Shown here: positions 1,329-23,587 of the stretch, in pieces
Layout: each line of letters opens with the position of its first letter
Numbering within the stretch: position 1 is the first letter of the stretch
IMG/VR virus record: IMGVR_UViG_3300030012_001409
Span: 1 to 23,853 of that record
Strand: one strand, 5' to 3'
DNA from: a virus
Length of the DNA stretch: 23,853 nt
Program-made: the position numbers and the translations under genes
The notes under the pieces: model-generated
Databases searched by the model: none
The model's input: the letters and a program-made list of their open reading frames with translations, nothing else
What the model was told of the DNA's origin: nothing

Positions 1329-2641
1329 TGGTTGTATTAAGAAAATATCAAAAAGCGGCAAGCAGTAAGTTGACAAGGCTTTGTCAGATTAAGAGATGCG
1401 GTTATCTAAGTGGTGAGTGCAGAACAGGCAAGACAATGGTGGCATTGTCTGTTGTCAAAAATATGGCACTTGAAAAGGTGTTGGTGATAACCAAGAAAAA
1501 GGCAATCCCAAGTATAAAAAGTGATGTTGAGAAGATGAATCTTGAAAGGGTAGTATCCATTACTAATTTTGAACAGTTAAAAAATTTTAAGGGAACAAGT
1601 TGGAATATGATCATCGTTGATGAAGCCCATAGTGTGGGTGCATTTCCAAAACCATCTCAACGATACCAGAATATATTGCAGCTTAGATATAACAGCATCA
1701 TTTTAATGAGTGGAACACCAAGCCCCGAAAGTTTTAGTCAGTTATATCATCAATGGTCTTTAACTCCCTTTTTATGGAGTAAATATCAAAATTTTTACAG
1801 ATGGGCTAGTGATTATGTTGATGTAAAGGAGAAGAGGGTTGGAACTGGTGTTGTTATTAAAGATTATTCAGAAGCAAGACAAAGCAGAATATTAAAGGAC
1901 ATCGAACCTTATACAGTTCAGATGACCCAAAAGGAGGCAGGCTTCACTCAGGAGGTTGAGGAAGAAGTGCATCTTGTGAAGATGTCTAGAAGAACATACA
2001 GGTTGGCGTTAAGAATTATAAAAAACGGTGTCATTGGTAAACCTGGAGGAAGATCAGTGGTGGCTGATACAGGGGCTAAAGTAATGAGCAAACTAAGGCA
2101 GATTTATAATGGCCATGTGATCACTGAGAATCATGGGGCAGTTGTGTTTGATAAAAGCAAAATTGAATATATAAAGGATAATTTCAGTGGAAAGATTGCC
2201 ATTTTATATTGCTTTATTGCTGAAGGTAAAATGCTGAGAGATTTTTTTGGATATAGGGCAACAGATGATCCAGATATATTTAATGCTGTAAGCGATTCCG
2301 TTTTTATCGGTCAGGTAAAGAGTTGTAGAGAAGGAATAAATCTTAGCAGTGCGGATCATTTAATTTTTTATGGTATTGATTATTCTGCACTCAGTTATTT
2401 GCAGGGAAGAGAGAGGGCAAGTTTTCTTGGCAGGGATAGAAAGAATAAAATACATTATATTTTTGCAGAGAAGGGAATCGAGCCAAAAGTTTATCAGGTA
2501 GTACAATCAAAGGAAAGCTATACGATCAAGCATTATAGAAATGACAGAGGCTCAATATCAGAAGAAGCTGATCGACAGGCACGAGAAAGAAGGGTGGACA
2601 GTAATCAAGTTAATTATGTGCAACAAAGCTGGTTTACCTGA
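1328..2641 (+). CDS. SNF2-like superfamily 2 DNA helicase/translocase
   Basis: A 437-aa protein with the superfamily 2 motifs in order: Walker A GECRTGKT at 29-36, Walker B DEAH at 98-101, motif III-like SGTP at 128-131, motif V region CREGINLSSADHLIFY at 333-348, and motif VI-like QGRERASFLGR at 359-369. This is the compact phage SNF2/DEAD-type ATPase often found beside replication or recombination genes; it would move on DNA using ATP. The start at 1328 has no Shine-Dalgarno but fits the predicted promoter and the Q-motif-like start LRKYQKAA. Everything recognisable ends by about residue 400. The last 33 residues are read from DNA that also encodes the next gene in another frame and are charged with no family signal. 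Its tail may be accidental. The helicase identity is secure; the exact substrate is unknown. Confidence 0.85.
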   Translation: MVVLRKYQKAASSKLTRLCQIKRCGYLSGECRTGKTMVALSVVKNMALEKVLVITKKKAIPSIKSDVEKMNLERVVSITNFEQLKNFKGTSWNMIIVDEAHSVGAFPKPSQRYQNILQLRYNSIILMSGTPSPESFSQLYHQWSLTPFLWSKYQNFYRWASDYVDVKEKRVGTGVVIKDYSEARQSRILKDIEPYTVQMTQKEAGFTQEVEEEVHLVKMSRRTYRLALRIIKNGVIGKPGGRSVVADTGAKVMSKLRQIYNGHVITENHGAVVFDKSKIEYIKDNFSGKIAILYCFIAEGKMLRDFFGYRATDDPDIFNAVSDSVFIGQVKSCREGINLSSADHLIFYGIDYSALSYLQGRERASFLGRDRKNKIHYIFAEKGIEPKVYQVVQSKESYTIKHYRNDRGSISEEADRQARERRVDSNQVNYVQQSWFT

Positions 2642-2780
2642 TTTGATCTGTATGAAACCAGATGAGGTAAAGTTTATTGAGGTAAAAGGGCCGAAGGGCA
2701 GATTGAGCGAGATTCAGAAATATAGGATTGAGGAACTAAAAGCAGCTGGATTCGCAGTTGATGTTATGAAACCTTGTTGA
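2541..2780 (+). CDS. VRR-NUC domain nuclease
   Basis: A 79-aa protein that is essentially a single VRR-NUC (PD-(D/E)XK superfamily) domain: early glutamate region TEAQYQKKLIDRHEKEGW, then AGLPDLI (catalytic Asp of the G-x-P-D motif) and KFIEVKGPKGRLS (the E-x-K pair). Phage stand-alone VRR-NUC proteins are thought to cut branched DNA intermediates and are commonly encoded beside SNF2-like helicases. It overlaps the helicase by 101 nt in a different frame, so translation is probably coupled. No Shine-Dalgarno is seen before ATG 2541. Its TGA stop is embedded in the -35 box of the next promoter. Confidence 0.85.
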   Translation: MTEAQYQKKLIDRHEKEGWTVIKLIMCNKAGLPDLICMKPDEVKFIEVKGPKGRLSEIQKYRIEELKAAGFAVDVMKPC

Positions 2781-2806
2781 CAGTTGTTGACAAATATGTT
2801 TATAAT
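2777..2806 (+). promoter_or_regulatory. Consensus promoter with doubled TTGACA box
   Basis: TTGACA (2777-2782), 18-nt spacer, TATAAT (2801-2806); both hexamers are perfect. A second TTGACA at 2787-2792 lies exactly 10 bp after the first, forming a direct repeat of GTTGACA (2776-2782 and 2786-2792). The -10 box ends 25 nt before the ATG at 2832. The second box is too close to the -10 (8 nt) to act as its -35, so it may be a binding site for a regulator. Confidence 0.7.
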
Positions 2807-2831
2807 ATAGGTATAGAGACAACCCCCTCAA

Positions 2832-3035
2832 ATGACTAAAAAAACTCTTTATGTAGAAATCGGTGAAGAAAGCCTTGGCTTAGTTTATGCCGATCCTGAA
2901 AACCAAAGAAAGGGTCTTGGAGGAATCATTGCAGATTTTACAATCGTTGATGCACCCGATGACCTTAAAAGTGAGATTGGATGTTTTCTTACACTTCCTC
3001 TTAATCAAATGAAAATCATTGAGGAGGCTAAGTAA
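2832..3035 (+). CDS. Hypothetical protein (67 aa)
   Basis: A small soluble, acidic protein directly behind the consensus promoter at 2777-2806. It contains no family motif that I recognise (starts MTKKTLYVEIGEESLGLVYA). There is no Shine-Dalgarno before ATG 2832. The next tiny gene begins immediately after its stop, and the Shine-Dalgarno of that gene lies inside its last codons. This arrangement, and its placement in an early-type operon, support real coding. Function unknown. Confidence 0.6.
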   Translation: MTKKTLYVEIGEESLGLVYADPENQRKGLGGIIADFTIVDAPDDLKSEIGCFLTLPLNQMKIIEEAK

Positions 3036-3152
3036 ATGACCCAAGCAGATTTAAGTTACATGATGCAAATGCTTTCTGATAAGAAAAAACTTATCACCAA
3101 TAAAAAATTTGACTGCACGACATGGGATAAAGAGGCAGAAGAATTGATCTAA
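3036..3152 (+). CDS. Small hypothetical protein (38 aa)
   Basis: ATG at 3036 directly abuts the upstream stop (TAA ATG), with a strong Shine-Dalgarno GAGGAGG at 3021-3027 and an 8-nt spacer, the best ribosome site in this part of the operon. The product starts MTQADLSYMMQMLSDKK and ends EAEELI; it looks helical and charged. No homologue is recognised. The strong ribosome site is the main reason to call it. Confidence 0.5.
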   Translation: MTQADLSYMMQMLSDKKKLITNKKFDCTTWDKEAEELI

Positions 3153-3154
3153 TA

Positions 3155-3610
3155 GTGGCCCATCCGAGTTGTCAGCATTTGGCGGTCAGTGGTAGCCGTC
3201 ATTTTTGGCGAAAGCAGAAGGAACAGAAAGAGGCACTTGATTTTGTGCGTATGCTTATGGATTGCAATATACCGAGATGGGCCATTGAAAACCCGATCAG
3301 TGTTATAAGTTCTGCTATAAGACCTCCAGATCAGATAATACAGCCTTGGGAGTTTGGTGACAGCTTTCAAAAGACCACCTGTTTATGGCTCAAGAACTTA
3401 CCAAAACTGAAACCGACCAAGATTGTAGATAAGGGTGAATTTTATATTTCTCCTAGTGGCAAGAAACTTCCTCTTTGGTATTCACAGGCAAAAAGCGGAA
3501 AAGTGCGCAGTAAAAGTTTCCCAGGCATCTGCGATGCCATCGGCAGGCAATGGGGAGATGAGACAAATCTTCCGATACCTGTCGAGCAACTTGATCTTTT
3601 TCAAGGTTGA
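3155..3610 (+). CDS. Cytosine-methylase-like protein, C-terminal half only
   Basis: A 151-aa protein with GTG start at 3155; an in-frame stop at 3128 and the absence of any other canonical start between them exclude extension upstream. It opens with AHPSCQHLAVSG, which aligns with motif IV (PC-containing catalytic loop) of phage C5-cytosine-methylase-like proteins, and contains AIENPIS (motif VI-like ENP). These are followed by the usual phage pattern QIIQPWEFGD, TTCLWLKNLP and SKSFPGICDAIGRQWG. From family knowledge, full-length members carry about 60-80 residues upstream with the S-adenosylmethionine-binding motif I; that part is absent here. The protein is therefore either a functional short form, a partner subunit or a degenerate methylase. 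Its stop codon overlaps the next promoter. The family resemblance is good; methyltransferase activity is doubtful. Confidence 0.65.
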   Translation: MAHPSCQHLAVSGSRHFWRKQKEQKEALDFVRMLMDCNIPRWAIENPISVISSAIRPPDQIIQPWEFGDSFQKTTCLWLKNLPKLKPTKIVDKGEFYISPSGKKLPLWYSQAKSGKVRSKSFPGICDAIGRQWGDETNLPIPVEQLDLFQG

Positions 3611-7398: not shown

Positions 7399-7668
7399 AT
7401 GGCTGAAGAAGAAAAAGAGAAAGAAGGTTTTGACTGGGGTGAACTCTTTGGCCATAGTGTCAGGTTTCTTATTTTGACTTGGAGTTTGTCAATGATGACT
7501 CTTGGATACATGGGCAAGGTAAGAATTGATGGAGCGTTTACCGCAGGTTTAGTCAGCGGTGTGCTAGGAAGCTACGGCATTTCCGTGGGACAGAAGAAAG
7601 GTGGCACAGGTAACGGAAATCCACCTAAAATAGTAGATAATAGTAAAAACAAAGTAGGTATCAAATGA
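7399..7668 (+). CDS. Small membrane protein, holin candidate (89 aa)
   Basis: A charged N-terminus (EEEKEKEGFDWGELF) is followed by one clear membrane helix (FLILTWSLSMMTLGYMG, about residues 24-40), a second glycine-rich hydrophobic segment (FTAGLVSGVLGSYGISVG) and a charged tail. Size and layout suit a class II holin or an accessory membrane protein, but no endolysin is adjacent to confirm this. It is the first gene of a rightward cassette of four; the next gene overlaps its stop by ATGA. The intergenic stretch 7286-7398 must carry the divergent promoters, but I see no convincing boxes in it. Confidence 0.6.
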   Translation: MAEEEKEKEGFDWGELFGHSVRFLILTWSLSMMTLGYMGKVRIDGAFTAGLVSGVLGSYGISVGQKKGGTGNGNPPKIVDNSKNKVGIK

Positions 7669-8198
7669 AAAAACTGATCCCATTTTTATTTATTGTCGGA
7701 AGTCCTACCGCAGTATTGGCAGATATTTCTCACTCAATCCAAAACGTAGTTTCAGTTTCTACATTAGGTGCCAGTTCAACAGCAAATAGAGTTGGCACGA
7801 CCTTTTCAGCATCAGGAACAAATGTCACCCCAACTGCTAGTGAAACTGCTAATGCAATAGGTACGCTTGATTTAACAGATGCACAAATCACAAATGGAGT
7901 TCCTACTATCGACTCAACCACCACTTATGCAGTAACCACTACTGGTGATGCGTGGTCTGTGTCAGAAAGCTTTATTCAAGGCGATTCTATCCCTACAAGT
8001 TTTTTAGGTACAACGGTTACTAATGGTGTTGTGCCATCGTTACCTATCTTCGGGGATACCACAACTGTTAGTGGTGGAGATATTGGCACTACAGCGATGA
8101 CAATGGACTCTGGTGGTGCAATGACAGTCAATCTATCTGCAACAGGCGCGGGTGTTACAGCACAGATGCAAAGTACGATCAAACTTGAAATTGATTGA
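7665..8198 (+). CDS. Exported Ser/Thr-rich protein 1 (177 aa)
   Basis: A classical signal peptide (MKKLIPFLFIVGSPTAVLA, cleavage probably after VLA) leads a Thr/Ser/Val-rich, lysine-poor beta-type body (NVVSVSTLGASSTANRVG and similar), with no cysteine. Late phage genes rarely carry signal peptides, so it is likely placed in the periplasm, outer membrane or outside. A motif GDAWSVSESF about residues 92-101 has a counterpart GEAFSITENF in the next protein, suggesting a duplicated family. ATGA overlap with the holin candidate upstream. Possible roles: envelope disruption at lysis, spanin-like action, or surface modification; none is shown. Confidence 0.65.
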   Translation: MKKLIPFLFIVGSPTAVLADISHSIQNVVSVSTLGASSTANRVGTTFSASGTNVTPTASETANAIGTLDLTDAQITNGVPTIDSTTTYAVTTTGDAWSVSESFIQGDSIPTSFLGTTVTNGVVPSLPIFGDTTTVSGGDIGTTAMTMDSGGAMTVNLSATGAGVTAQMQSTIKLEID

Positions 8199-8626
8199 TG
8201 CGGTGGCTTGTACTTATATTCTTCGCAATACCTAGTGCAAATGCTGGGAGTATTACACCTTCCTTTTCTACAGGCCAGATGGAATCTTCAAGCTCTAGCA
8301 AGACTATTATCGTGGAGACAATTGTTACAGAGAACTATAGGACAGGGTACTCATATTCTATGCAAGGGTCTAATGTACAAGTCAAAGATGGAACTGTTAT
8401 CTCACCTGATGCGACATATACAAACACACAAACAGTTAATGGGGTTTCGTTTCAATGGGTGACTCCAAACCTAACAACCAAACCTCAATGGGAGATCAAA
8501 ACCCCAGGAGAAGCCTTCAGTATTACAGAAAACTTTTTAGCTCCAGGTTTAGATGCCACAAGCACAATACAGAGAACAATCAATACAGAAAGTCAGAGTA
8601 CAAGTTTAAGTATCTTCTCGCAGTAA
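8198..8626 (+). CDS. Exported Ser/Thr-rich protein 2 (142 aa)
   Basis: Signal peptide MRWLVLIFFAIPSANAG with probable cleavage after ANA. ATG 8198 shares one base with the previous stop (TGATG); an in-frame TTG at 8195 would add one residue. The mature protein is Ser/Thr-rich and beta-type; its YRTGYSYSMQGSNVQV and GEAFSITENF segments parallel NRVGTTFSASGTNVTP and GDAWSVSESF of the preceding protein, so the two are probably distant paralogues. The 3' part overlaps the next ORF by up to 172 nt in the -1 frame. Function unknown. Confidence 0.65.
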   Translation: MRWLVLIFFAIPSANAGSITPSFSTGQMESSSSSKTIIVETIVTENYRTGYSYSMQGSNVQVKDGTVISPDATYTNTQTVNGVSFQWVTPNLTTKPQWEIKTPGEAFSITENFLAPGLDATSTIQRTINTESQSTSLSIFSQ

Positions 8627-9222
8627 GTTTCTTACTTATATCGCCTGTAAAAGCTAATACCGTATCATCCCCATCTGCATCATCTTCTGGAACAGTTATA
8701 AATAATGGATATCAGACAATAAATGGAAACTTTCCTACTCATAGATATTCACAGGGTATTCAATGCCAATTACCAACTTTGGCTATCACTCCCTTTATCA
8801 CTAAAGGACAAAATTACAGCCATCCAAAAGTTACAACAACCAGAACCAACATTTACGATCTTTCAGAAGATGCTGACGGTAATCTTATTAATCCTGGTCG
8901 TATCCTTTATCAGTCCGAACAACCAAGAATAGATCAGACTACATTTAATTTTAATTATGGTGTCACTGCAAGTTTTCAGATACCACTCGGAGGTCATGGA
9001 TTTAATAAGGCTTGTTTAAGGGCTGCTGAAACACAGATAAAAGGACAGGAATTTGCACTTACTAAGGCGAAATTAGAGGCTAATCTGGCAAGAATGAAGA
9101 TATGTGCAGAGCAACTAAAACTCGGTGTAAAATTTGTTGGAGAAGATGCTGTTACCTGTAAAAATGTTGTATTAACTAGCGTTCCAAACCAAGTTATCCC
9201 ACATACTCATAAATTAAAGTAG
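8455..9222 (+). CDS. Exported Cys-containing protein 3 (start uncertain)
   Basis: The open frame from ATG 8455 gives 255 aa; ATG 8488 is the next possible start. The conserved-looking part begins at KYLLAVSFLLISPVKA (about residues 52-67), a signal-peptide-like segment, followed by NTVSSPSASSSG, GYQTINGNFPTHRYSQGIQC, a strand-rich middle and a helical C-terminus with cysteines (ACLRAAETQ, KICAEQLKLG, TCKNVV). From memory this pattern occurs in marine cyanophage proteins that start right at the signal peptide. Here no ATG, GTG or TTG lies between 8491 and the signal segment, so translation must begin upstream with a long basic N-region, use a non-standard start, or arise by a -1 shift from the preceding gene. 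The coding from about 8608 to 9222 is convincing. Confidence 0.6.
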   Translation: MGDSKPNNQTSMGDQNPRRSLQYYRKLFSSRFRCHKHNTENNQYRKSEYKFKYLLAVSFLLISPVKANTVSSPSASSSGTVINNGYQTINGNFPTHRYSQGIQCQLPTLAITPFITKGQNYSHPKVTTTRTNIYDLSEDADGNLINPGRILYQSEQPRIDQTTFNFNYGVTASFQIPLGGHGFNKACLRAAETQIKGQEFALTKAKLEANLARMKICAEQLKLGVKFVGEDAVTCKNVVLTSVPNQVIPHTHKLK

Positions 9223-10834: not shown

Positions 10835-12559
10835 TTACCCCATTTCAAGGGCTGTGACTTTTGCTGATAATTCTTGTACTGCTTTTACTAAAATTGGTAC
10901 AAATTTTCCATAAGATGCTTCTAATTTTTCTGGATTGGATTTATAAACTGCACCAATATAATCATTTTTATCACCTAATGCAGCATCAATTTCTTGTGCA
11001 ATAAAACCAAGTTCTGTTTTTCCATTATTTGCACTAGGTTCACGCATTGCCCATGTAAACTTTCTTGGCCTCAGTGAATTAATTAAATCAAGTCCATCTT
11101 CTGAATCAACAATATCTGTTTTATCTCTTTCATCTGAAAGTGCGCTGATTGATTGCACTTGGCAACGAATAGCAGTGATACTTGAATTGCCTAGAGTTAC
11201 TTCATTAGTGGCTGTTGCAGAAGAAGGGTCTGCGTCATAACCAAGAGATGTGTTGTTTGATCCAGTTGTTATAAGATCACCTGCACTTGAACCTACGGCC
11301 GTGTTCTGAGTTCCAGTTGTGTTCGCATTTAATGAAAGATTACCAAAAGCAGTGTTATCATTTCCAGTATTGTTTTGCTGCAAAGCACTGACACCAAAAG
11401 CATTATTACGTGTTCCTTCAGTGTTGAATTGCATACAATGAGAACCAAAAGCATTATTTAATTCGCCAGTAGTATTAGTAGTTAAAGCGTTCCTGCCTAC
11501 AGCAGTAACATTATTTGCGGTAGTATTAGCATCTAAAGCATTTGCACCTACGGCTGTGTTATTTGAAGCAGTGGTGTTTACCCCCAATGCACTATTTCCA
11601 AAAGCTGTATTGTTTGCCCCCGAAGTATTTAACTTTAAAGATTGTGAACCCATCGCCGAGTTTGCGCTTCCTGTTGTATTACTAAGCAAACTATAAGTAC
11701 CAAAAGCAGAATTATTACTTGCCTCAGTGTTAGATTGCATAGCTGACGAACCCATACAAGTGTTGTTAGTTCCAGTTGTATTCAATGCCATAGCACTTTT
11801 ACCAACAGCAGTATTTAAGTTTGCTGTATTATTTGCAAGACATTCATGCCCGACTGCAACGATGTTAAAGCCAGATATATTACTTGTTAAAGCTGAACCA
11901 CCAACAGCAACGTTAAAGTTTCCTGTAGTATTTGCGTCTAATGCACCTGTTCCTACAGCAGTATTGATTTGACCTGTAGTATTTTTTTGCATTGCAGCAT
12001 TACCAATAGCAACATTACTTGCAGCATTGTTATCTTCTAGAGCTTGTGTTCCAATAGCAACGCACTGAATCGCAGTGGTGGCTGTTTCTAAAGCTTCTTG
12101 TCCTATTGCTATATTTGCATTTCCTGTAGTGATGTTTCCACCAGCAAGAGTACCAATTCCTACACAACTAGCCCCAGAAGTTAAATCTGTTAATGATTGT
12201 TTTCCTATTGCAATGTTATTTGTACCACTAACAGAAGCATCTAAAGCACTCTCTCCAAGAACAGTGTTACCATCAGCTGAGTTTGCACCTTTACCAATAT
12301 TAATTGAATTTATTGTTCCATCTATAGGAAATGCTGGCCCACCAGCTAATGTAAATAAATCTAAAAAAGCATTATTTGATGTATTTCTAAGCTGCATCAT
12401 ACTTGTGGAAGTATTAGCAAAAAAACCACTTGCAAAGGTTGTACTTGCAGCCGAAGAACCAGAATTATTTGTTGCTATCGCTTGTAAAACGGTATTAATA
12501 TCAGCTCTGACGTTAGCACCCGTAGAGTTGTCTATTGTATAATCTGAAGCTTGTGCCAT
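10835..12559 (-). CDS. Tail fibre with head-type repeats and peptidase S74 chaperone
   Basis: A 574-aa fibre. Residues 1-35 (ASDYTIDNSTGANVRADINT and neighbouring part) match the attachment domain of marine phage fibres. Residues 88-450 consist of about twenty 17-residue repeats, consensus NTAxGxxALxxNTTGxx, which should form a trimeric left-handed YadA-head-like stalk. Residues 473-574 are a peptidase S74 intramolecular chaperone domain: the self-cleavage site has SDERDKTDI (S475-D476 with K480), then FTWAMRE, ELGFIAQEI, and a final coiled coil (LVKAVQELSAKVTALE). The chaperone trimerises the fibre and cleaves itself off. It likely recognises the host surface. It follows the J-equivalent gene by 41 nt, where a TATAAT-like box (12587-12582) is seen without a matching -35. 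Confidence 0.88.
   Translation of the reverse strand: MAQASDYTIDNSTGANVRADINTVLQAIATNNSGSSAASTTFASGFFANTSTSMMQLRNTSNNAFLDLFTLAGGPAFPIDGTINSINIGKGANSADGNTVLGESALDASVSGTNNIAIGKQSLTDLTSGASCVGIGTLAGGNITTGNANIAIGQEALETATTAIQCVAIGTQALEDNNAASNVAIGNAAMQKNTTGQINTAVGTGALDANTTGNFNVAVGGSALTSNISGFNIVAVGHECLANNTANLNTAVGKSAMALNTTGTNNTCMGSSAMQSNTEASNNSAFGTYSLLSNTTGSANSAMGSQSLKLNTSGANNTAFGNSALGVNTTASNNTAVGANALDANTTANNVTAVGRNALTTNTTGELNNAFGSHCMQFNTEGTRNNAFGVSALQQNNTGNDNTAFGNLSLNANTTGTQNTAVGSSAGDLITTGSNNTSLGYDADPSSATATNEVTLGNSSITAIRCQVQSISALSDERDKTDIVDSEDGLDLINSLRPRKFTWAMREPSANNGKTELGFIAQEIDAALGDKNDYIGAVYKSNPEKLEASYGKFVPILVKAVQELSAKVTALEMG
11209..12298 (-). repeat. 51-bp-period coding repeats of the fibre stalk
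   Basis: About 20 tandem copies of a 17-codon unit (two copies look one codon shorter), consensus NTAxGxxALxxNTTGxx. The copies differ at most positions outside the consensus, so they are old duplications. The strand opposite gives long open frames that are by-products of this periodicity. Confidence 0.85.
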
Positions 12560-12600
12560 TTGTAATACAAAATTTTATTTAATTATATACTATCCTAAAA

Positions 12601-15600
12601 TTAACTTCCACGCCCAAAACCCGTTGCTGCATATTTGAAATTCCTATTTACATTATTACCGTTAGAATCTTTTACATCAATATCAAAACCAGTTCCAGTT
12701 ATATTTGATAAAACAAAGAAATCACCCTGTGATTGATTTTCTATTGTTATACCGATAGAGGGTAAGACAGAATTTGCTGCAACACTGGTACCAGATTGAC
12801 CAGTAAAGAAACTATTTGTAAAAGTAACTGATTTCGTGGATGTACCGGATGCAATAAATCCACCAGCAGAAGCCCCTGCATTACCAAGGCTTGTTTCTGT
12901 TCTGCTTTCTATAAGTGCTGTATATCCTAACTGTTCAATTTCGATTGACTGTGCAATATCTTTTGTTGACATATCACATCTAAATTTAAAACCTCTTGCA
13001 ATATATTTTCCATTTACAAAAGGGTTAAACTGGCTAAATTCTGCACTGAAATTGCAGTTACCACTGGTTGATAAAGAAGTTGCAGAAGTTAAGGTATAAG
13101 AATTTGCATCAGGTACAGTTTGTATTTCATAATCCCCATCGACACCTGTTCCAGATGTAAAGTCAACAGTAACAAAACTGCCAACAGAATATCCATGAGA
13201 AGATTTTGTAATTGTAATTATTGTTCCCGCCCCACCTGAGCCATTATTTATTGTATAAGTACCAGCAGTTGAAGTATCTGGGTCTGAATCAGTTGTTGCC
13301 ACTAATAATTTAGCGTTTACATCAACAGCGACAGTTGTACCGTCAAAATCAGTCCATGTGTCAACATTTTCACTTCTTTCATCAAATAATTGGTTATTGT
13401 AAAATCCTTTTGTGACAAAATGTCTTTGCAAAACAAGTGGTTGTTTGCCTCCTAAATCTAAAGTATTTGCAAAAGCATATGTTCCACCTGTAGCAACTGA
13501 GTTATCTAATAAATCTAAATCTTCTATGGCATCAAAATCTGAAACACCATCAATAGTATCTTCAGAACCAAGAACAAGACCATTGAGACTACTACTAAAA
13601 AAACAACCAACTTTCGCTCCATTAAAAGGTGTTCCGTCTGTATCTTCTCTATCTGTTAAAACTGTTAATTTAGGAAAGATGTCAGGTTGTGTTGAAATAT
13701 TTTTTATTGACGCAGCATTGGCACTTATGCGACCACCATCATCTCTAAAGGCTAAAAAATAAGTTCCATTAACAATATTAGGAACAATAGTTTCATTTAC
13801 ATTACCTGATAATTCAGGAATAACGTCAACAGAATCTGTAAAAGATGCACCTGTTGTTAGGTTAGAACCACGAATAATAACGTTGCCTCCATGTATAACA
13901 TCAACAGATGTTGATTTATCAAAACGTAATCTTATAAATTGATCGGATAATGGTTCAATCTGTACATTTTGTACATCTTCTGGCAAGCCTGTTTTTCCTT
14001 CAGCATTAAAAGTTAGAAGAGATGTACCAGAACTTAATTTGCCTAATGTATTTACAGATTTAACAGCAAATTTATAAGTGCCTAACCTTGATTCAAAAAG
14101 TTCAAAACTGGGTCTTGCTACTCTTAATCTTTCTGGATTATCATTTTCATATTGAAATTCTAATAAATATTCTTTAACACCCTGAACAGGTTCCCATGCA
14201 ACAAATATTTTTGATACGGCTCTATTACTAAGAGCAACTATTTGTTCTGTTGCCGTTAGGTTACTTGGAGAAGGTTTTTCATTTAATAAAGTAGTTATTG
14301 TTCTTGGATTGGCAGCAACAGTTGTATCTTCTACCTGTGCATATTTATTAGTATCATGAATAACTGCTGTAATAGTATATTCAGAGTCATTTTTTTCTTC
14401 GATGGAAACAACCCGATAAATTTGAAACTTAACAGAAGTATTTTCTATAGCCCAAACACTGTTTGCCAATGGTGCAGAAGAAAAAGCAGATGAAACTGTT
14501 ATTGTTGTATCACTAATTGTACTAATTGATCTACTTTCAACAGAACCATCAGATAAAACAACTGAAAGTGTTGCTGCATTTTCTGTTGTCAGATTAGTAT
14601 TGTTTGCATCATCTACAACAATAGTAGTGGTATCAGTAACAGATTTTATACGCCCTCCTCTTCTTACCCCTGCTCTTAATGAATCTGCGATAGCAATAAT
14701 TGTAGAAGGTCTTACAATTACACCAGCTTCAAGAGTAGTTGTAAAAGAAACTACCTCTGATTCTTTTAAATTTGAGTATAAAAACCACCGACCTAATCTA
14801 TTTGCTTGACCTCTTGAAGTACAGGCAAAAGCTCTTAAAGTTTTTCTAGTTCTTCCAAATTTTGATGTTGAATCTGATAACGCTGTAATATCATCAGTTG
14901 TAACAAGTTCATAATCTATCGTTTGAGTTTCATTATCAAAATAAGCAACCTCAACCTCTGTATATTTTGTTCTCTGCCCTACACCCTGATAAGTAAAACC
15001 TTCTTCTGTTACGTTTGAGTTATTGAAAATATATTGTGCATCAGATGTATTAGTTGATGTATTAGTTGGCCTGTCCTGAGATATCTGCAAGCTACCATTG
15101 CTATAGAATGGCATGGCGTTCATTACAGAACATAAATCATTAATCAAACTGTAAGCATCATTTTTTTGATTCAAAATTACGTTGCAACTAAATCTTGGTT
15201 CTGTAGTTCCTGTAATTGGATCTGTTATTAATTCACTGGCATATGCACTTGCAGAATAAAAGCTAAAAACATCTAAAGTGTCCGCATCAATTACACCATC
15301 TGTGCCGCCAAACCCTTTATCTGTTGTCAATATGTCGTATAAAATCCAAGCTGGATCAGAACACCATTCTTTATCTGTTTTGAAAGTACCATCAAAAACA
15401 TAACCATCAGGGTAAATAACTCTTCCATTATCACTATCAACTGTTGTATCGCTTGGCACTTTAATTTTTGTACCTTTGATACGGTACATACGTTTTGGAT
15501 AGCTTTGAAATTCTTGAGCATTGAACCTTATGGCAACATAAGCAAAGCCTTGATAAGCACTTGTATCTGTATTTATTTCTGTAAGAGACAAAAATCTTGT

Positions 15601-16248
15601 TTTGTTTTGTAGTGTTGATACTGTACTATCATCTGTATTTCTAATAACTGTTATATCAATAGGAAAGCTCATTGTTTTTTCAAACTTAATCTCAAAATCT
15701 TTAACAAATGGGCTTGTTGCTTTTCCATTAATAGAGTTTGCTTCTACTGGATCATGAACGGTACCATCATTTTCTGTAATTCGTATTGATACTTTTACTT
15801 CAGTTCCAACTATGTCTCCATTATCTTCAAACTTTTGTAAGCTCGGAATTTGAACTGATACTCTTACCTTATCAACATTAGTATCTGTAATTGATCTTGT
15901 AACAGAAGTTGCTTTTGTTACTTCCACATTCACTGGAACAGTATTTTCTATAGCATTAATTTCTTGTAATGCTGTCTGATCTGATGCACCATTTTTAAAA
16001 AATACTTCCACATCAGAAAAATTTTCTTCACCGTTTGCATTTTGTAATGGTGTTCCATCAAGGAAAACATTTTTTCTAAAAGTATTTGTACCAACACCAC
16101 CAGGATCTAATATTGAATCTATCTCTCCATATCCGAGCAAATCTAAAACAGTTGCAAATTGCTTACTACGCAGGCCACCATCTATCAGGTCAGGATCAAC
16201 AACCTTTCTATCAGTTCCAAATAATTGATCATCAACTAATCTAGGCAT
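12601..16248 (-). CDS. Tail tip host-specificity protein (lambda gpJ-like)
   Basis: A 1215-aa protein and the largest in the window. The N-terminus (MPRLVDDQLFGTDRKVV) and the region around 290-480 (DKEWCSDPAWILYDILTTDK, CSVMNAMPFYSNGSLQISQD, GRWFLYSNLKESEVVSF) are typical of the J-type baseplate hub that forms the tail tip and contacts the receptor. A fibronectin-III-like domain spans about 657-745 (WEPVQGVKEYLLEFQYEN, FAVKSVNTLG). A beta-rich module at about 995-1067 is also present in two neighbouring tail proteins. The C-terminal 150 residues are probably the host-contact part. It is preceded by the I-equivalent, whose stop overlaps its start by one base. Length is similar to lambda gpJ. 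Confidence 0.88.
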   Translation of the reverse strand: MPRLVDDQLFGTDRKVVDPDLIDGGLRSKQFATVLDLLGYGEIDSILDPGGVGTNTFRKNVFLDGTPLQNANGEENFSDVEVFFKNGASDQTALQEINAIENTVPVNVEVTKATSVTRSITDTNVDKVRVSVQIPSLQKFEDNGDIVGTEVKVSIRITENDGTVHDPVEANSINGKATSPFVKDFEIKFEKTMSFPIDITVIRNTDDSTVSTLQNKTRFLSLTEINTDTSAYQGFAYVAIRFNAQEFQSYPKRMYRIKGTKIKVPSDTTVDSDNGRVIYPDGYVFDGTFKTDKEWCSDPAWILYDILTTDKGFGGTDGVIDADTLDVFSFYSASAYASELITDPITGTTEPRFSCNVILNQKNDAYSLINDLCSVMNAMPFYSNGSLQISQDRPTNTSTNTSDAQYIFNNSNVTEEGFTYQGVGQRTKYTEVEVAYFDNETQTIDYELVTTDDITALSDSTSKFGRTRKTLRAFACTSRGQANRLGRWFLYSNLKESEVVSFTTTLEAGVIVRPSTIIAIADSLRAGVRRGGRIKSVTDTTTIVVDDANNTNLTTENAATLSVVLSDGSVESRSISTISDTTITVSSAFSSAPLANSVWAIENTSVKFQIYRVVSIEEKNDSEYTITAVIHDTNKYAQVEDTTVAANPRTITTLLNEKPSPSNLTATEQIVALSNRAVSKIFVAWEPVQGVKEYLLEFQYENDNPERLRVARPSFELFESRLGTYKFAVKSVNTLGKLSSGTSLLTFNAEGKTGLPEDVQNVQIEPLSDQFIRLRFDKSTSVDVIHGGNVIIRGSNLTTGASFTDSVDVIPELSGNVNETIVPNIVNGTYFLAFRDDGGRISANAASIKNISTQPDIFPKLTVLTDREDTDGTPFNGAKVGCFFSSSLNGLVLGSEDTIDGVSDFDAIEDLDLLDNSVATGGTYAFANTLDLGGKQPLVLQRHFVTKGFYNNQLFDERSENVDTWTDFDGTTVAVDVNAKLLVATTDSDPDTSTAGTYTINNGSGGAGTIITITKSSHGYSVGSFVTVDFTSGTGVDGDYEIQTVPDANSYTLTSATSLSTSGNCNFSAEFSQFNPFVNGKYIARGFKFRCDMSTKDIAQSIEIEQLGYTALIESRTETSLGNAGASAGGFIASGTSTKSVTFTNSFFTGQSGTSVAANSVLPSIGITIENQSQGDFFVLSNITGTGFDIDVKDSNGNNVNRNFKYAATGFGRGS
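13048..13266 (-). repeat. Shared beta-module, copy in gpJ-like protein
   Basis: The encoded segment, about 73 residues, runs from GTYTINNGSGGAGTIITITK to SGNCNF. It carries ITITKSSHGYSVGSFVTVDF, SGTGVDGDYEIQTV and DANSYTLTS, matching the modules at 18066-18263 and 18479-18703 block by block. Confidence 0.75.
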
Positions 16249-16853
16249 CAGGTTATGCTCTTAACTACTTGAGTAGAATCTGTTCCTGAACTTATTATAA
16301 TTGAGCCGCTAAAGACAGCCCCATAAATTATAGGTATTGGAACACCACTTGAACTGACATTCTGTATACCACTAAACGAATATGAACCTCTTATGGATGG
16401 GTCAATATCACTAACACTTGAAACATCAGGTATTGGATTTTGTGGTGATAAAAGATCAGTTACCCCACCAATAAGCATAGAAGTTCCAACAGTTGTCAAT
16501 GCTGTTGATAAGACAGTTCCAACAAGGAACCCTGCCACCCCAGTTAATGTTGTTGCAGCAGCAGCAGCTCCAGCACCTATTCCAATGGCACCAATAACTA
16601 CAGGAACAGCACCAGTAGCTATTGGAATAATTTGTATATCTCCCTGACCTGTCATTGATAAATATTCTTCTGTTATTACCCTGCCTCCCATCTTTACTTT
16701 ATAAATCTGATCATTCATATGTTTTTGGACGCCTTCAAAATTTGCGACTAAAAAACTCATCGCCTGTTGTGGTGACTTTACAGCAGCCATAAAATATGAC
16801 TTTCCCAGAAATTGCCTTAATTTTCCATATACTTTTATTTTTTTAAGCTGCAT
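16248..16853 (-). CDS. Tail assembly protein (lambda gpI-like)
   Basis: A 201-aa protein. Residues 1-75 (KKIKVYGKLRQFLGKSYFMA, then SFLVANFEGV) resemble the ubiquitin-like N-terminal domain of lambda I proteins. Residues 78-130 are very rich in Gly/Ala/Val (VVIGAIGIGAGAAAAATTLT), the characteristic hydrophobic middle. The C-terminus (GVPIPIIYGAVFSGSIIISS) matches the family's end. It is needed for tail tip assembly in lambda but not necessarily present in virions. It overlaps the upstream K-equivalent by 11 nt and the downstream J-equivalent by one base. Confidence 0.8.
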   Translation of the reverse strand: MQLKKIKVYGKLRQFLGKSYFMAAVKSPQQAMSFLVANFEGVQKHMNDQIYKVKMGGRVITEEYLSMTGQGDIQIIPIATGAVPVVIGAIGIGAGAAAAATTLTGVAGFLVGTVLSTALTTVGTSMLIGGVTDLLSPQNPIPDVSSVSDIDPSIRGSYSFSGIQNVSSSGVPIPIIYGAVFSGSIIISSGTDSTQVVKSIT

Positions 16854-17550
16854 ATCTATAAACTCCTCTGAGTGCCTGTTGGTATCTTAAGTCAAAAAGT
16901 TCTCTACAACTCAAAGCTTTTATATTATGATTCAATATCATGTTATCACCTATATAAACAGCGACATGATCTAAATTGCCTGTGACAGATTGAAAGAGTA
17001 AAACATCGCCAACTTCTATATTTTTATTACTTTCTTGTTTCTTAAATCCTGTAATTGGTAAACCTTTTTCAAATAAAGGGTTTTCAATAAAATCTTTTAT
17101 ACGTTTTGGTCTTTTCCATTCTTTTAACTTTATATTTTTTGTTTCTAAAAACCAGTCTGAAATTATACTCCAACAATCGTATTTTCCCCAGATAAATTTC
17201 CTACCTATCAATGAAGGTGCTTTCCAACCTGTAGGCTCTAAAGATTCCCAATGATCGTGTTCGATACTATAGATAAAATATGGAAACCCAAGATGTTCAC
17301 AGGCTGCCCTGTCTGTATCTGATGGTGTCGCAGCACCTACAGGATGACTATGTATTACACCAACAACCTCTCCTGTATCTTCACATTCTGCCCAATCATC
17401 AGGATCAAGAATAAAAAATTCAAACTTTCCCTCTGCCAAGTTTTTACAAGGCCAAAAAGTTTCTTTACCTTTAATTATTGCAAGCAAACCACAAGCCTCC
17501 TCTGGTGCTTGTTCTTTTGCATATTTTATAAAAGATTCTTTCCAAGTCAT
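16843..17550 (-). CDS. Tail tip peptidase, JAMM plus NlpC/P60 (lambda gpK-like)
   Basis: A 235-aa two-domain protein. The N-terminal MPN/JAMM metallopeptidase has the complete pattern: E17/E18 (PEEACGLL), H67-x-H69, S77 and D80 in HSHPVGAATPSDTD. The C-terminal NlpC/P60 domain has catalytic Cys126 (KYDCWSIISDWF), His195 (LDHVAVYIGD) and His208 (ILNHN). Such proteins sit at the tail tip; the NlpC/P60 part is thought to cut peptidoglycan during DNA entry. The length and domain order are those of lambda gpK. It starts 2 nt after the L-equivalent stop, without a clear Shine-Dalgarno. Confidence 0.88.
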   Translation of the reverse strand: MTWKESFIKYAKEQAPEEACGLLAIIKGKETFWPCKNLAEGKFEFFILDPDDWAECEDTGEVVGVIHSHPVGAATPSDTDRAACEHLGFPYFIYSIEHDHWESLEPTGWKAPSLIGRKFIWGKYDCWSIISDWFLETKNIKLKEWKRPKRIKDFIENPLFEKGLPITGFKKQESNKNIEVGDVLLFQSVTGNLDHVAVYIGDNMILNHNIKALSCRELFDLRYQQALRGVYRYAA

Positions 17551-17552
17551 AA

Positions 17553-18371
17553 TTAAAAATTAACAAATGTTCCAACACCTGCAAAGTCGGCCTTTGTTAC
17601 AAGTTTTTTAGGTGCTGATACACCAAACAGATCAAAAGAACTTACAAGCTCAAATTGTACAATGTTTCTATTTTCAATAGTTTTTCTTTCAATAAAATAT
17701 ACTTCTCGTGGTAACTCTGCTGAAGGATCAACAGAACCGCTTTTATATGGATTTACATCAGATGGAAAATTTACTTCATCTAAATCTTTACTCAATGCTC
17801 TGCGTCTTGTTACTTTTGCCCCTGCAAGATCAGATAATGCTGTGGTTTGATTTGTAAGCTGTAATATTGATGTAATAGTTCCTAAAAGATTAGAAAGTGT
17901 AAAAGTTGGTCTTGGTAATTTACCTTTACCAGAATATTTAAACCCTTCAGCTTTTACTGGCATCCTTGAATATGTATTTGCCTGCCAAACAATGTCCAGA
18001 CTATCTTTCATATTATTTCCACTATGAAATAAATAAACAGTTGGATTAGCTATTGTTGCATTGACATTGAAAGATACATTACCATTTGTGAATTGTGAAG
18101 TTGTACCAGTGACTGTGAAAGTATTTGTATCAACTGTTTGTATTGTATAAATCCCATCAATACCATTTCCTGAAGTAAAATCAAGACTTAAAATTAAACC
18201 AGCAGAAAACCCATGACTGCTTAGTGTGATAGTGATTGTCGTTGTTGATTGCACATATGTAGCTGTTTTTGCTGTTTTTGTATAATGTATATCAGGCTTT
18301 AATTCAACAGAATATAGCTCAATAATAGATTTATTTGTTAATCCTTGAAGTGCACTTGTAGGAACTGCCAT
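17553..18371 (-). CDS. Minor tail protein (lambda gpL-like) lacking the Fe-S end
   Basis: A 272-aa protein. Family features: LTNKSIIELYSVELKPDIHY at the N-terminus, YLFHSGNN, ANTYSRMPVKAEGF, KLPRPTFTLSNLLGTI, DLAGAKVTRRRAL, LDEVNFPS, and ELPREVYFIERKTIENRNIV. Residues 37-102 are a beta-module inserted between the N-terminal strand and the HSG motif. Family members normally continue after APKK with a cysteine-containing segment that binds a 4Fe-4S cluster in lambda gpL. Here the protein stops about 17 residues after APKK and contains no cysteine at all. It is a structural part of the tail tip. One base is shared with the upstream M-equivalent stop. Confidence 0.85.
   Translation of the reverse strand: MAVPTSALQGLTNKSIIELYSVELKPDIHYTKTAKTATYVQSTTTITITLSSHGFSAGLILSLDFTSGNGIDGIYTIQTVDTNTFTVTGTTSQFTNGNVSFNVNATIANPTVYLFHSGNNMKDSLDIVWQANTYSRMPVKAEGFKYSGKGKLPRPTFTLSNLLGTITSILQLTNQTTALSDLAGAKVTRRRALSKDLDEVNFPSDVNPYKSGSVDPSAELPREVYFIERKTIENRNIVQFELVSSFDLFGVSAPKKLVTKADFAGVGTFVNF
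18066..18263 (-). repeat. Shared beta-module, copy in gpL-like protein
   Basis: Residues 37-102: ATYVQSTTTITITLSSHGFS, LDFTSGNGIDGIYTIQTV, DTNTFTVTG and GNVSFN. It lacks the GSGGAG loop of the other two copies, so it is slightly shorter. Confidence 0.75.
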
Positions 18372-18967
18372 TATGGTTCAAATACTTCTCTGAAAGAACA
18401 GTTTATTATTGCTCTGTTATTATAAGGAATTGTTTTTGTCCAAGAATCACAGACATATTGACCAGCCCCAGAAAGTGTAAAATCAACATTAGTTGCAACT
18501 GTAACCAAAGCACTATCAGCAGCGGTTGAAGTAAGTGTGAAAGTATTGGCATCAGCAGAGGAGGCAACAACATAAGATCCATCAGTAGGGCCAGAACTAA
18601 AATCAACTGTTAATACATCACCTATTGCCACACCATGATTTGCAAAAGTGACAGTAATAATTGTTCCAGCAGCACCACTTCCATTTGATTGAACATAAGT
18701 ACCTGTCTTTGCACTAAACCCCTCTGCGGGTGGTGTGAATGTGAAACTAGCCTGATCTGCAACCCTACTTCTTAAAAATGCTTCAATGACATCTGCATTA
18801 GTTTCAGAGACATTAAAGGTAAGATCATATACTTTCGGATCTTGAGATAATGGAAGGCCATACAAAGCCCTGAACTCATAACCATCACCAAGAGAGGTAA
18901 CTCTTATCTTTGGTTTGCTTTGTTTTCTCATCCCATAAGTGGGCTGTATTGATGGAAATGTAGCCAT
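18371..18967 (-). CDS. Minor tail protein (lambda gpM-like) with inserted module
   Basis: A 198-aa protein. The first 80 residues (PTYGMRKQSKPKIRVTSLGD, EAFLRSRVADQASFTFTPP) and the last 30 (YVCDSWTKTIPYNNRAIINC, SFREVFEP) together make the ordinary gpM-like fold, about 110-120 residues. Residues 89-163 are an insertion placed exactly between the TPP motif and the YVCDSW motif. It is a tail-tip component working between tape measure and L. It shares one base with the tape measure stop upstream. The start is ATG 18967 with no Shine-Dalgarno. Confidence 0.85.
   Translation of the reverse strand: MATFPSIQPTYGMRKQSKPKIRVTSLGDGYEFRALYGLPLSQDPKVYDLTFNVSETNADVIEAFLRSRVADQASFTFTPPAEGFSAKTGTYVQSNGSGAAGTIITVTFANHGVAIGDVLTVDFSSGPTDGSYVVASSADANTFTLTSTAADSALVTVATNVDFTLSGAGQYVCDSWTKTIPYNNRAIINCSFREVFEP
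18479..18703 (-). repeat. Shared beta-module, copy in gpM-like protein
   Basis: Residues 89-163: GTYVQSNGSGAAGTIITVTF, ANHGVAIGDVLTVDFSSG, TDGSYVVASSADANTFTLTS and NVDF. Of the three copies it is closest to the one in the J-equivalent at its GSGxAGTIIT start. Confidence 0.75.
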
Positions 18968-22477: not shown

Positions 22478-22831
22478 TTACCTCAAGATAAGATCAAAGC
22501 TTATTGCTATATTATTTTGCTCATTTGTAATCACCTGGATAATTTTAAATTCAACACTGCTTATCACAACTCTATCTTTTGTTGTTGGTACAAACGATAA
22601 ATCCCCTGCTGATATTGTTAATCTTTTATCCTGTGACTCAATCAGATCATTTACCTCAGACCTACTTACATTTGTTAAGGCACCTTTAACAGTGGTATCA
22701 GATGTAGATTCTGTTATTGCTCCTGTAGTGGTATTGTATGACCCTGCTGTAACTCTCCTGATAATCACATCACCACCAAGTTTACTCAGTGTTTTTGATG
22801 CTGCTTTTTTTAATGCGTTGGCTAAACTCAT
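22478..22831 (-). CDS. Head-closure / head-tail joining protein
   Basis: A 117-aa protein: basic helical N-terminus (LANALKKAASKTLSKLGGDV), then a beta part with IIRRVTAGSYNTTTGAIT, VKGALTNVSRSEVNDLI, RLTISAGDLSFVPTTKDRVV and VEFKIIQV. The repetition of strands and the position before the gp10-like gene fit head-closure (stopper) proteins. Overlaps the preceding paralogue by 4 nt (ATGA). Confidence 0.7.
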   Translation of the reverse strand: MSLANALKKAASKTLSKLGGDVIIRRVTAGSYNTTTGAITESTSDTTVKGALTNVSRSEVNDLIESQDKRLTISAGDLSFVPTTKDRVVISSVEFKIIQVITNEQNNIAISFDLILR

Positions 22832-23103
22832 AATCTATATACAATAACAGTGCCGCTATCTAATACAACAACAGAAAATGGGCCAAAAAATTCTGCTCCC
22901 GCTTTTAATTGAACTGAACGATGATCTCCAAAATATCCTGGCAAAATACTATCAAAATCTGTAATATCATCAACTGATGGAACTGAATCAAAAAGTTTTC
23001 CAATAGTAATTACAGAATCTTGTAAAGCAACAACCTTACCAAAACGTCCAGTATGAACGCTGGTATCATTAATAATTTTTGCCGCTGGATAATTTGAGAT
23101 CAC
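22828..23103 (-). CDS. Tandem paralogue C, unknown virion-type protein (91 aa)
   Basis: The start is GTG 23103, overlapping the previous stop (GTGA). It shares AAKIINDTSVHTGRFGKVVA and LQDSVI with the two upstream genes, and ends LDSGTVIVYRL. Compared with the others it has about 15 extra residues (VPSVDDITDFDSILPGYFG) in the middle. Probably a small structural protein such as a decoration protein, but this is inferred only from location. Confidence 0.65.
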   Translation of the reverse strand: MISNYPAAKIINDTSVHTGRFGKVVALQDSVITIGKLFDSVPSVDDITDFDSILPGYFGDHRSVQLKAGAEFFGPFSVVVLDSGTVIVYRL

Positions 23104-23327
23104 AATGAATAAGCAATTACAGTGCCACTTGTTAATGTAATACTTGTTATAACACCTTCTATTTCAGCAGTAGATTTAAACTGTAGAGATGTCAGATCGC
23201 CTGTAATGTTTTCAGAAACAAGGGTTGCAATGACAGAATCTTGCAGAGCAGCAATTTTACCAAATCTGCCTGTATGGGCATCAGTATCATTGATAATTTT
23301 GGCGGCTGGGAAATCAGAATAGGACAT
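23100..23327 (-). CDS. Tandem paralogue B, unknown virion-type protein (75 aa)
   Basis: ATG 23327 is chosen over the longer in-frame ATG 23351 because it starts 2 nt after the upstream stop and matches the start of paralogue C (FPAAKIINDT versus YPAAKIINDT). Shared blocks: DTDAHTGRFGKIAALQDSVI, SENITGDL, EGVITSITLTSGTVIAYSL. Shortest of the three, so it approximates the core fold. Confidence 0.7.
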   Translation of the reverse strand: MSYSDFPAAKIINDTDAHTGRFGKIAALQDSVIATLVSENITGDLTSLQFKSTAEIEGVITSITLTSGTVIAYSL

Positions 23328-23329
23328 AG

Positions 23330-23587
23330 TTAAACTCGGTAAGCTATACAAGCTCCATTTTGAAGCTTAATACTGGTAAATACACCCTCAATTATAAAAC
23401 CTACTGGAAATGATTCACCATCTAAAGAATTACCTGTATAATTTTCGCTTGCAAGAGTTGTGATATGTGTATTCTCAAAAAAATCAATCCTCTTAAATCT
23501 GCCTGTATGCGTAGCTGTATCTGTTATAACTTCTGCTCCCACATTATAGAAACCATCAACAGCACCAACTCCTAAAGCCCTAGACAT
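23330..23587 (-). CDS. Tandem paralogue A, unknown virion-type protein (85 aa)
   Basis: Shares DTATHTGRFKRIDFFENTHI, ASENYTGNSL, EGVFTSIKLQNGACIAYRV with the next two genes, with about 10 extra N-terminal residues. Shine-Dalgarno AGAGGAG lies within the end of the connector gene. Three paralogues in a row between the connector and head-closure genes probably form a small multimeric part of the capsid or neck. Confidence 0.7.
   Translation of the reverse strand: MSRALGVGAVDGFYNVGAEVITDTATHTGRFKRIDFFENTHITTLASENYTGNSLDGESFPVGFIIEGVFTSIKLQNGACIAYRV

Follow-up and report, generated by a model that had tools for sequence, protein, structure and literature searches.

An endosialidase-like barrel inserted into neighbouring tail-tip proteins of a marine lambda-type phage: a candidate glycan-binding module

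Introduction

When neighbouring tail-tip genes of one phage appear to encode the same segment, it must be asked what this segment is, how it came to lie in each of them and what it may do there. The DNA analysed here (the window) is a stretch of 23,853 nucleotides, corresponding to positions 1 to 23,853 of a 37,077-base virus record, IMGVR_UViG_3300030012_001409. The closest annotated relatives of this record are the Prochlorococcus siphoviruses MED4-184, MED4-117 and P-HS2 and the marine single-cell virus AG-345-A17, and the phage is marine and cyanophage-like. To our knowledge, little is understood of the receptors that Prochlorococcus-type phages use or of the chemistry of their first contact with the host. 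An earlier note on the window, made from the letters alone, had described a common segment in its gpM-, gpL- and gpJ-like proteins and read it as a mobile domain copied among neighbouring virion genes.

A lambda-type tail-tip block

The window contains a lambda-type tail-tip block on the minus strand, with genes M, L, K, I and J:

18371..18967, minus strand: gpM-like distal tail protein, 198 aa (Phage_min_tail PF05939, 52.5 bits, cut-off 39)
17553..18371, minus strand: gpL-like hub protein (HDI), 272 aa (Phage_tail_L PF05100, 96 bits, cut-off 25)
16843..17550, minus strand: gpK-like protein (JAB and NlpC/P60, from Pfam), without the module
16248..16853, minus strand: gpI-like tail assembly protein (PHROG tail assembly protein, E 2e-31), without the module in the window
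12601..16248, minus strand: gpJ-like central fibre/tip protein, 1215 aa (PHROG central tail fiber J, E 2e-175)

Besides passing the curated cut-off of PF05939, the M family is tied to lambda by a profile of M relatives that matched lambda gpM (8iyk_M) with an E of 3e-14. Likewise, the window gpL has the HDI fold and passes the curated cut-off of PF05100, and the core of its AF2 model matches lambda gpL with a Z of 17.4 over 151 residues at 3.1 A.

Several other genes lie nearby. A fibre-like protein of 574 aa, encoded at 10835-12559, contains many NTAVG-type repeats and has a Peptidase_S74 (endosialidase-type chaperone) domain at its C-terminus, and conserved families of unknown function (phrog_564; phrog_848 and 1755) occupy the plus strand at 7665-9222, facing the minus-strand virion genes. 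Between the head and tail genes, at 22828-23587, are three tandem small genes (83-91 aa) that all belong to phrog_34166, function unknown, and are possibly small decoration proteins.

One homologous module in gpM, gpL and gpJ

The shared segment is 70-80 residues long in each of the three proteins, and its copies were delimited as follows:

18473..18712, minus strand: barrel module of gpM, at residues 86-165 and inserted between TPP and YVCDSW (no counterpart in lambda gpM or in 104 marine M/L pairs)
18060..18272, minus strand: barrel module of gpL, at residues 34-104 and inserted where core strand beta1 joins beta2 (model match to endosialidase barrels)
13036..13275, minus strand: inserted barrel module in gpJ, residues 992-1071 (PF12195 E 1.7e-5; empty site in relatives)

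Local alignment of the whole M, L and J proteins gave scores of 146, 180 and 183, against shuffle maxima of 61-71 (300 shuffles each), and picked out exactly the segments described in the earlier note. The pairwise profile comparison which that note had proposed likewise found the segments to be related, since slot-specific alignments matched one another across nearly their full length at a probability of 99.7-99.9%, with E of 5e-26 (M/L), 1e-26 (M/J) and 4e-32 (L/J). A chance resemblance of T/S/G-rich beta sequences might be suspected from the biased composition of all three segments, but with alignment scores far beyond those of shuffles, this profile probability and a barrel fold predicted for the J as well as the L copy, we regard it as extremely improbable. 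These sequence comparisons show the three segments to be one homologous module. No further module was found in the remaining 13 kb of the record.

Similarity to endosialidase barrels

When compared with PDB, the module profile matched endosialidases (4hiz, E 1.2e-7; 1v0e, about 6e-7); antibody chains appeared at an E of 0.006 or worse and were taken as compositional noise. The Pfam family End_beta_barrel (PF12195) was matched by 63 of 82 module copies. As isolated segments the window copies score below its curated cut-off of 35 bits (J 25.1, L 17.9 and M 16.1 bits), and a copy in the capsid protein of P-SSP2 passes it with 36.4 bits. Weak PHROG and Pfam matches to UmuD-like, Zn-ribbon and PPC families had low scores and were not common to the three copies, so were rejected, and a search of NCBIfam with the module gave nothing useful.

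Structures were predicted with AlphaFold from inputs that contained no rows of the phage collection, each such row having been dropped entire. The J copy was modelled as a six-stranded barrel (pLDDT 83, pTM 0.73) and gpL with a pLDDT of 85, rising to about 90 or more in the module. Residues 33-110 of the gpL model superpose on endosialidase barrels with a Z of 8.5-9.0 (1.8-1.9 A, 69-70 residues), ahead of E1 FCCH barrels at a Z of 7.4. With the isolated J model, flavin-reductase, E1 FCCH and ATPase barrels resemble the module at similar Z, and the fold alone does not discriminate; the endosialidase assignment therefore rests on the sequence profile and the gpL model. The other barrel families were set aside as only endosialidases appear in the sequence profile and endosialidases lead E1 in the gpL model. 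Taken together, profile and models point to an autonomous barrel of six strands that is PF12195-like and homologous to the beta-barrel domain of endosialidases. No beta-propeller endosialidase surrounds the modules, Pfam giving only the gpM, gpL and gpJ families in these window proteins.

The barrel of the K1F endosialidase has a polysialic-acid site to which S460, S468 and G504 belong, with host-dependent or discrimination effects (PMC12632334). With residues numbered from the start of the chain, a numbering with which the letters agree, all three positions fall within the module-aligned region, S460 aligning with the D of DF[ST]SG and S468 with the D of DG in the module profile. Both site serines are thus Asp in the modules, and therefore the ligand, if any, is probably a glycan other than polysialic acid.

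Empty sites in relatives

The earlier note had observed that the segment cleanly interrupts the M and L family alignments, between TPP and YVCDSW and between IHY and YLFHSG, and relatives with empty sites bear this out. M relatives without the module read FDFEAPGESASQ-KFVCETW across the site and L relatives LHGSAQTYRFHNG, with nothing between in either case, and J relatives without it read VATTDDDPSSGSASFTQFNVFANG. Clean joins are seen over the M site in the M proteins of AG-345-A17 and S-H1, and over the L site in the L proteins of MED4-184, AG-345-A17 and S-H1. The cultured relatives P-HS2 and MED4-184, phages of Prochlorococcus MED4, bear the module in M and J. Lambda gpM and gpL, found by profile search, also have no such segment, and printed alignments place the insertion sites in lambda hairpins at ~77-82 (gpM) and ~31-34 (gpL).

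Across 296 loci, which were gathered by similarity to M and L and whose proportions are thus not population frequencies, the distinct M/L pairs comprised 104 with neither module, 94 with both, 25 with M only and 0 with L only. The J site is empty in L010 and L072, whose M and L modules are present, and in 32 relatives with neither M nor L module. The segment is consequently no constant part of the M and L core folds. Its absence from precisely these positions in lambda gpM and gpL, in the 104 marine M/L pairs and in numerous J proteins shows the module to be a true insertion into otherwise normal M, L and J folds, one that is dispensable across relatives.

The gpL relatives vary in other ways. 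The window gpL stops short of the four-cysteine [4Fe-4S] domain found at the C-terminus of lambda gpL and contains no cysteine; by a simple motif test the four-cysteine pattern is missing in 204 of 219 complete gpL relatives and kept in 15, and the lambda structure paper calls this cluster universal in gpL homologues. A different insert of ~130 residues is present in the gpL of L003 (7418-8407) and its 331-aa relatives (L145, L146, L148, L153, L163 and L164), where it occupies another loop, after LDAVNFP, ends YYCSTHGNSMGNTI and looks cupredoxin-like by eye, with no Pfam match. In L268 (3290-4933), L271 and L278, gpL reaches 547-548 aa through a large beta-rich insert, lectin-like by eye, that lies inside the Fe-S domain between the cysteine pairs. 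Finally, the gpL proteins of L167, L175, L177, L194, L215, L216 and L272 bear an N-terminal extension before the HDI domain that is CBM5/12-like by eye, and in L175 and L177 Pfam detects another copy, lodged in the beta1-beta2 hairpin.

Occurrence in other virion proteins

The search for other phage proteins carrying the segment, which the earlier note had also suggested, was productive. In relatives the module occurs at the C-terminus of gpI (L035, L047, L109, L111, L115, L132 and others), at two or three additional N-terminal places of gpJ and in the pectate-lyase-like spike of L182. It is also carried by the major capsid protein of the cultured cyanophages P-SSP2 and P-SSP3, and the capsid homologue of P-SSP7 (74% identical) matches over only 83%, in two pieces. 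Weak tblastn matches add the gp7 baseplate proteins of P-HM1 and P-HM2 and tail tube protein B of NATL1A-7.

Two records merit separate mention. In L005, the major capsid protein of the Prochlorococcus podovirus P-SSP2, with its barrel above the PF12195 cut-off, lies at 2122-3435. In L002 (MED4-184), the public record splits gpJ at 11104-14762 into two overlapping open frames and leaves the module-bearing part unannotated, which may be a sequencing or annotation matter.

Age and inheritance of the modules

On a tree of the module-free M and L core columns (128 rows), on which a gain cannot be distinguished with certainty from a loss, the L module is explained by one change, on a branch with a support of 100, while starred branches force three changes for the M module. 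Insertion into gpL is therefore compatible with one event. In a tree of 156 modules, which has few columns and does not give the deep order among slots and donors, the modules group by slot, requiring 3 changes for M and 2 for L in place of ~30 each with shuffled labels. Aligned pairwise, the window copies have 39-49% of residues and 51-57% of bases identical, with half or less third-base identity at shared residues and a longest exact match of 12 bases.

Recent copying between neighbouring tail-tip genes within this phage lineage, as the earlier note had it, would suit the adjacency of the genes, and three gpI modules nested within the L-slot group of the module tree are the sole hint of neighbour-to-neighbour transfer. 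Against this, the slots form separate groups across phages, no phage was seen with the module in L but not in M, and the slot-wise clustering together with the low base identity excludes recent gene-to-gene copying for M, L and J here; as a general account we find it very unlikely. Of the mobile domain copied among neighbouring genes, the homologous module inserted in M, L, J and other virion proteins thus stands, and the copying, so worded, is not supported. The modules are old, slot-wise insertions, and the window phage inherited three long-separated copies.

Proposed role at the tail tip

We lean towards the module being a surface adhesion module, probably glycan-binding, that would form a polyvalent collar around the tail tip. 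With its N- and C-terminal strands side by side, the predicted barrel can be spliced into surface hairpins, and in the window phage it sits in the gpM ring hairpin, the gpL beta1-beta2 hairpin and a loop of the distal part of gpJ. In the gpV tube fold, to which gpL is related, the beta1-beta2 connection is the O-loop, which with a helix makes up the outer ring surface (PMC10721106). The barrels would accordingly be expected to face outward, given that a folded domain would not fit the DNA channel. Lambda has a gpM hexamer and gpL and gpJ trimers (PMC10721106), so if this stoichiometry is kept (6 M, 3 L, 3 J) about twelve barrels would surround the tip. They might grip host-surface glycans weakly and polyvalently, before the true receptor is engaged.

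The best support for such a collar comes from L175 and L177, where a CBM5/12-like module (CBM_5_12, E 3e-5 and 0.024) sits at the same gpL beta1-beta2 hairpin. Given this and the kinship with the endosialidase barrel, glycan binding by the modules can reasonably be inferred. Furthermore, the modules diverge faster than their host cores (mean identity 0.71 vs 0.91 for M, 0.73 vs 0.81 for L), as expected for host-facing parts, and the barrel recurs on other surface proteins of virions. The lactococcal Dit insertions discussed below are an experimental analogue.

A promiscuous domain, a neutral or weakly useful passenger spreading wherever a surface loop tolerates it, would also account for the wide scatter over unrelated virion proteins, and phage Ig-like domains show a comparable promiscuous spread. 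Such a passenger is harder to reconcile with the lasting presence of the module in M and L of one clade (all 94 pairs with both modules), with the single L-module change and with a CBM5/12-like module at the same hairpin, and we think it distinctly unlikely.

Alternatively, the barrels could be structural, bracing or spacing the M ring, the L/J ring and the fibre, or touching each other, with no host binding. The same fold does recur in three consecutive parts of one assembly, and in lambda the Ig-like domains inserted in gpJ are packed around the cone (PMC10721106). Yet the module can be missing from any slot independently of at least one other, as in L010 and L072 with M and L but no J module, the 25 pairs with M only and the 104 with neither; modules change faster than cores; and similar barrels occur in unrelated virion proteins. 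We rate a purely structural role as rather unlikely, though it deserves to be kept in mind, and prefer the adhesive collar, by which the modules probably give the tail tip extra surface grips on the host cell.

Discussion

The module resembles the endosialidase beta-barrel domain (PF12195; PDB 1v0e, 3ju4 and 4hiz) in sequence profile, predicted fold and inserted place in a larger beta protein. It differs in belonging to tail-tip structural proteins with no beta-propeller or catalytic part, in window copies that lie under the Pfam cut-off and in the aspartates that replace the aligned sialic-acid-site serines.

Distal tail proteins with inserted carbohydrate-binding modules are already known from lactococcal siphophages, where the modules aid adsorption (PMC6669499, PMC10688798); such insertions in Dit promote attachment of the phage to lactococci that bear EPS (PMC10688798). 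The lactococcal evolved Dit (evoDit) and further virion proteins decorated with CBMs (PMC6669499, PMC10688798) share with our case a portable domain in distal tail proteins, optional between relatives and also present in other virion proteins; as there, the domain lies in a Dit-type ring protein and is absent from close relatives, judged by the empty gpM and gpL sites. Those phages have Gram-positive hosts and recognised CBMs, with binding shown for some, whereas here the tip is of lambda type, the module falls in no recognised CBM family but is related to a barrel with a sialic-acid site, and it is carried at once by three neighbouring tip proteins.

In lambda itself, gpJ has Ig-like/FNIII insertions, likewise extra beta domains in a tail-tip protein, which its authors proposed to bind surface sugars weakly (PMC10721106). 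These have a different fold and are confined to gpJ, lambda gpM and gpL having no inserts at the sites described here. The CBM5/12-like module in gpL of L175 and L177 shares the beta1-beta2 hairpin but is an unrelated domain. What is new is the module type, the lambda-type marine setting and the presence in three to four neighbouring tip proteins; in open-access papers we found no report of the barrel in cyanophage tail-tip proteins, which is weak evidence of absence.

More broadly, and tentatively, marine lambda-type phages may use an endosialidase-like barrel on the gpM ring, gpL, gpJ and sometimes gpI as a glycan-gripping collar, the loops serving as recurrent docking slots, also for other sugar-binding modules; the odds are, in our view, somewhat against so general a picture. 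A portable barrel on surface proteins of marine sipho-, podo- and myophages, sharing a loop with a CBM5/12-like module, is a candidate for glycan recognition. Its sites mark loops of the lambda-type tail tip that evolution has used to add domains, and the evolved-Dit principle would thereby extend beyond Gram-positive hosts.
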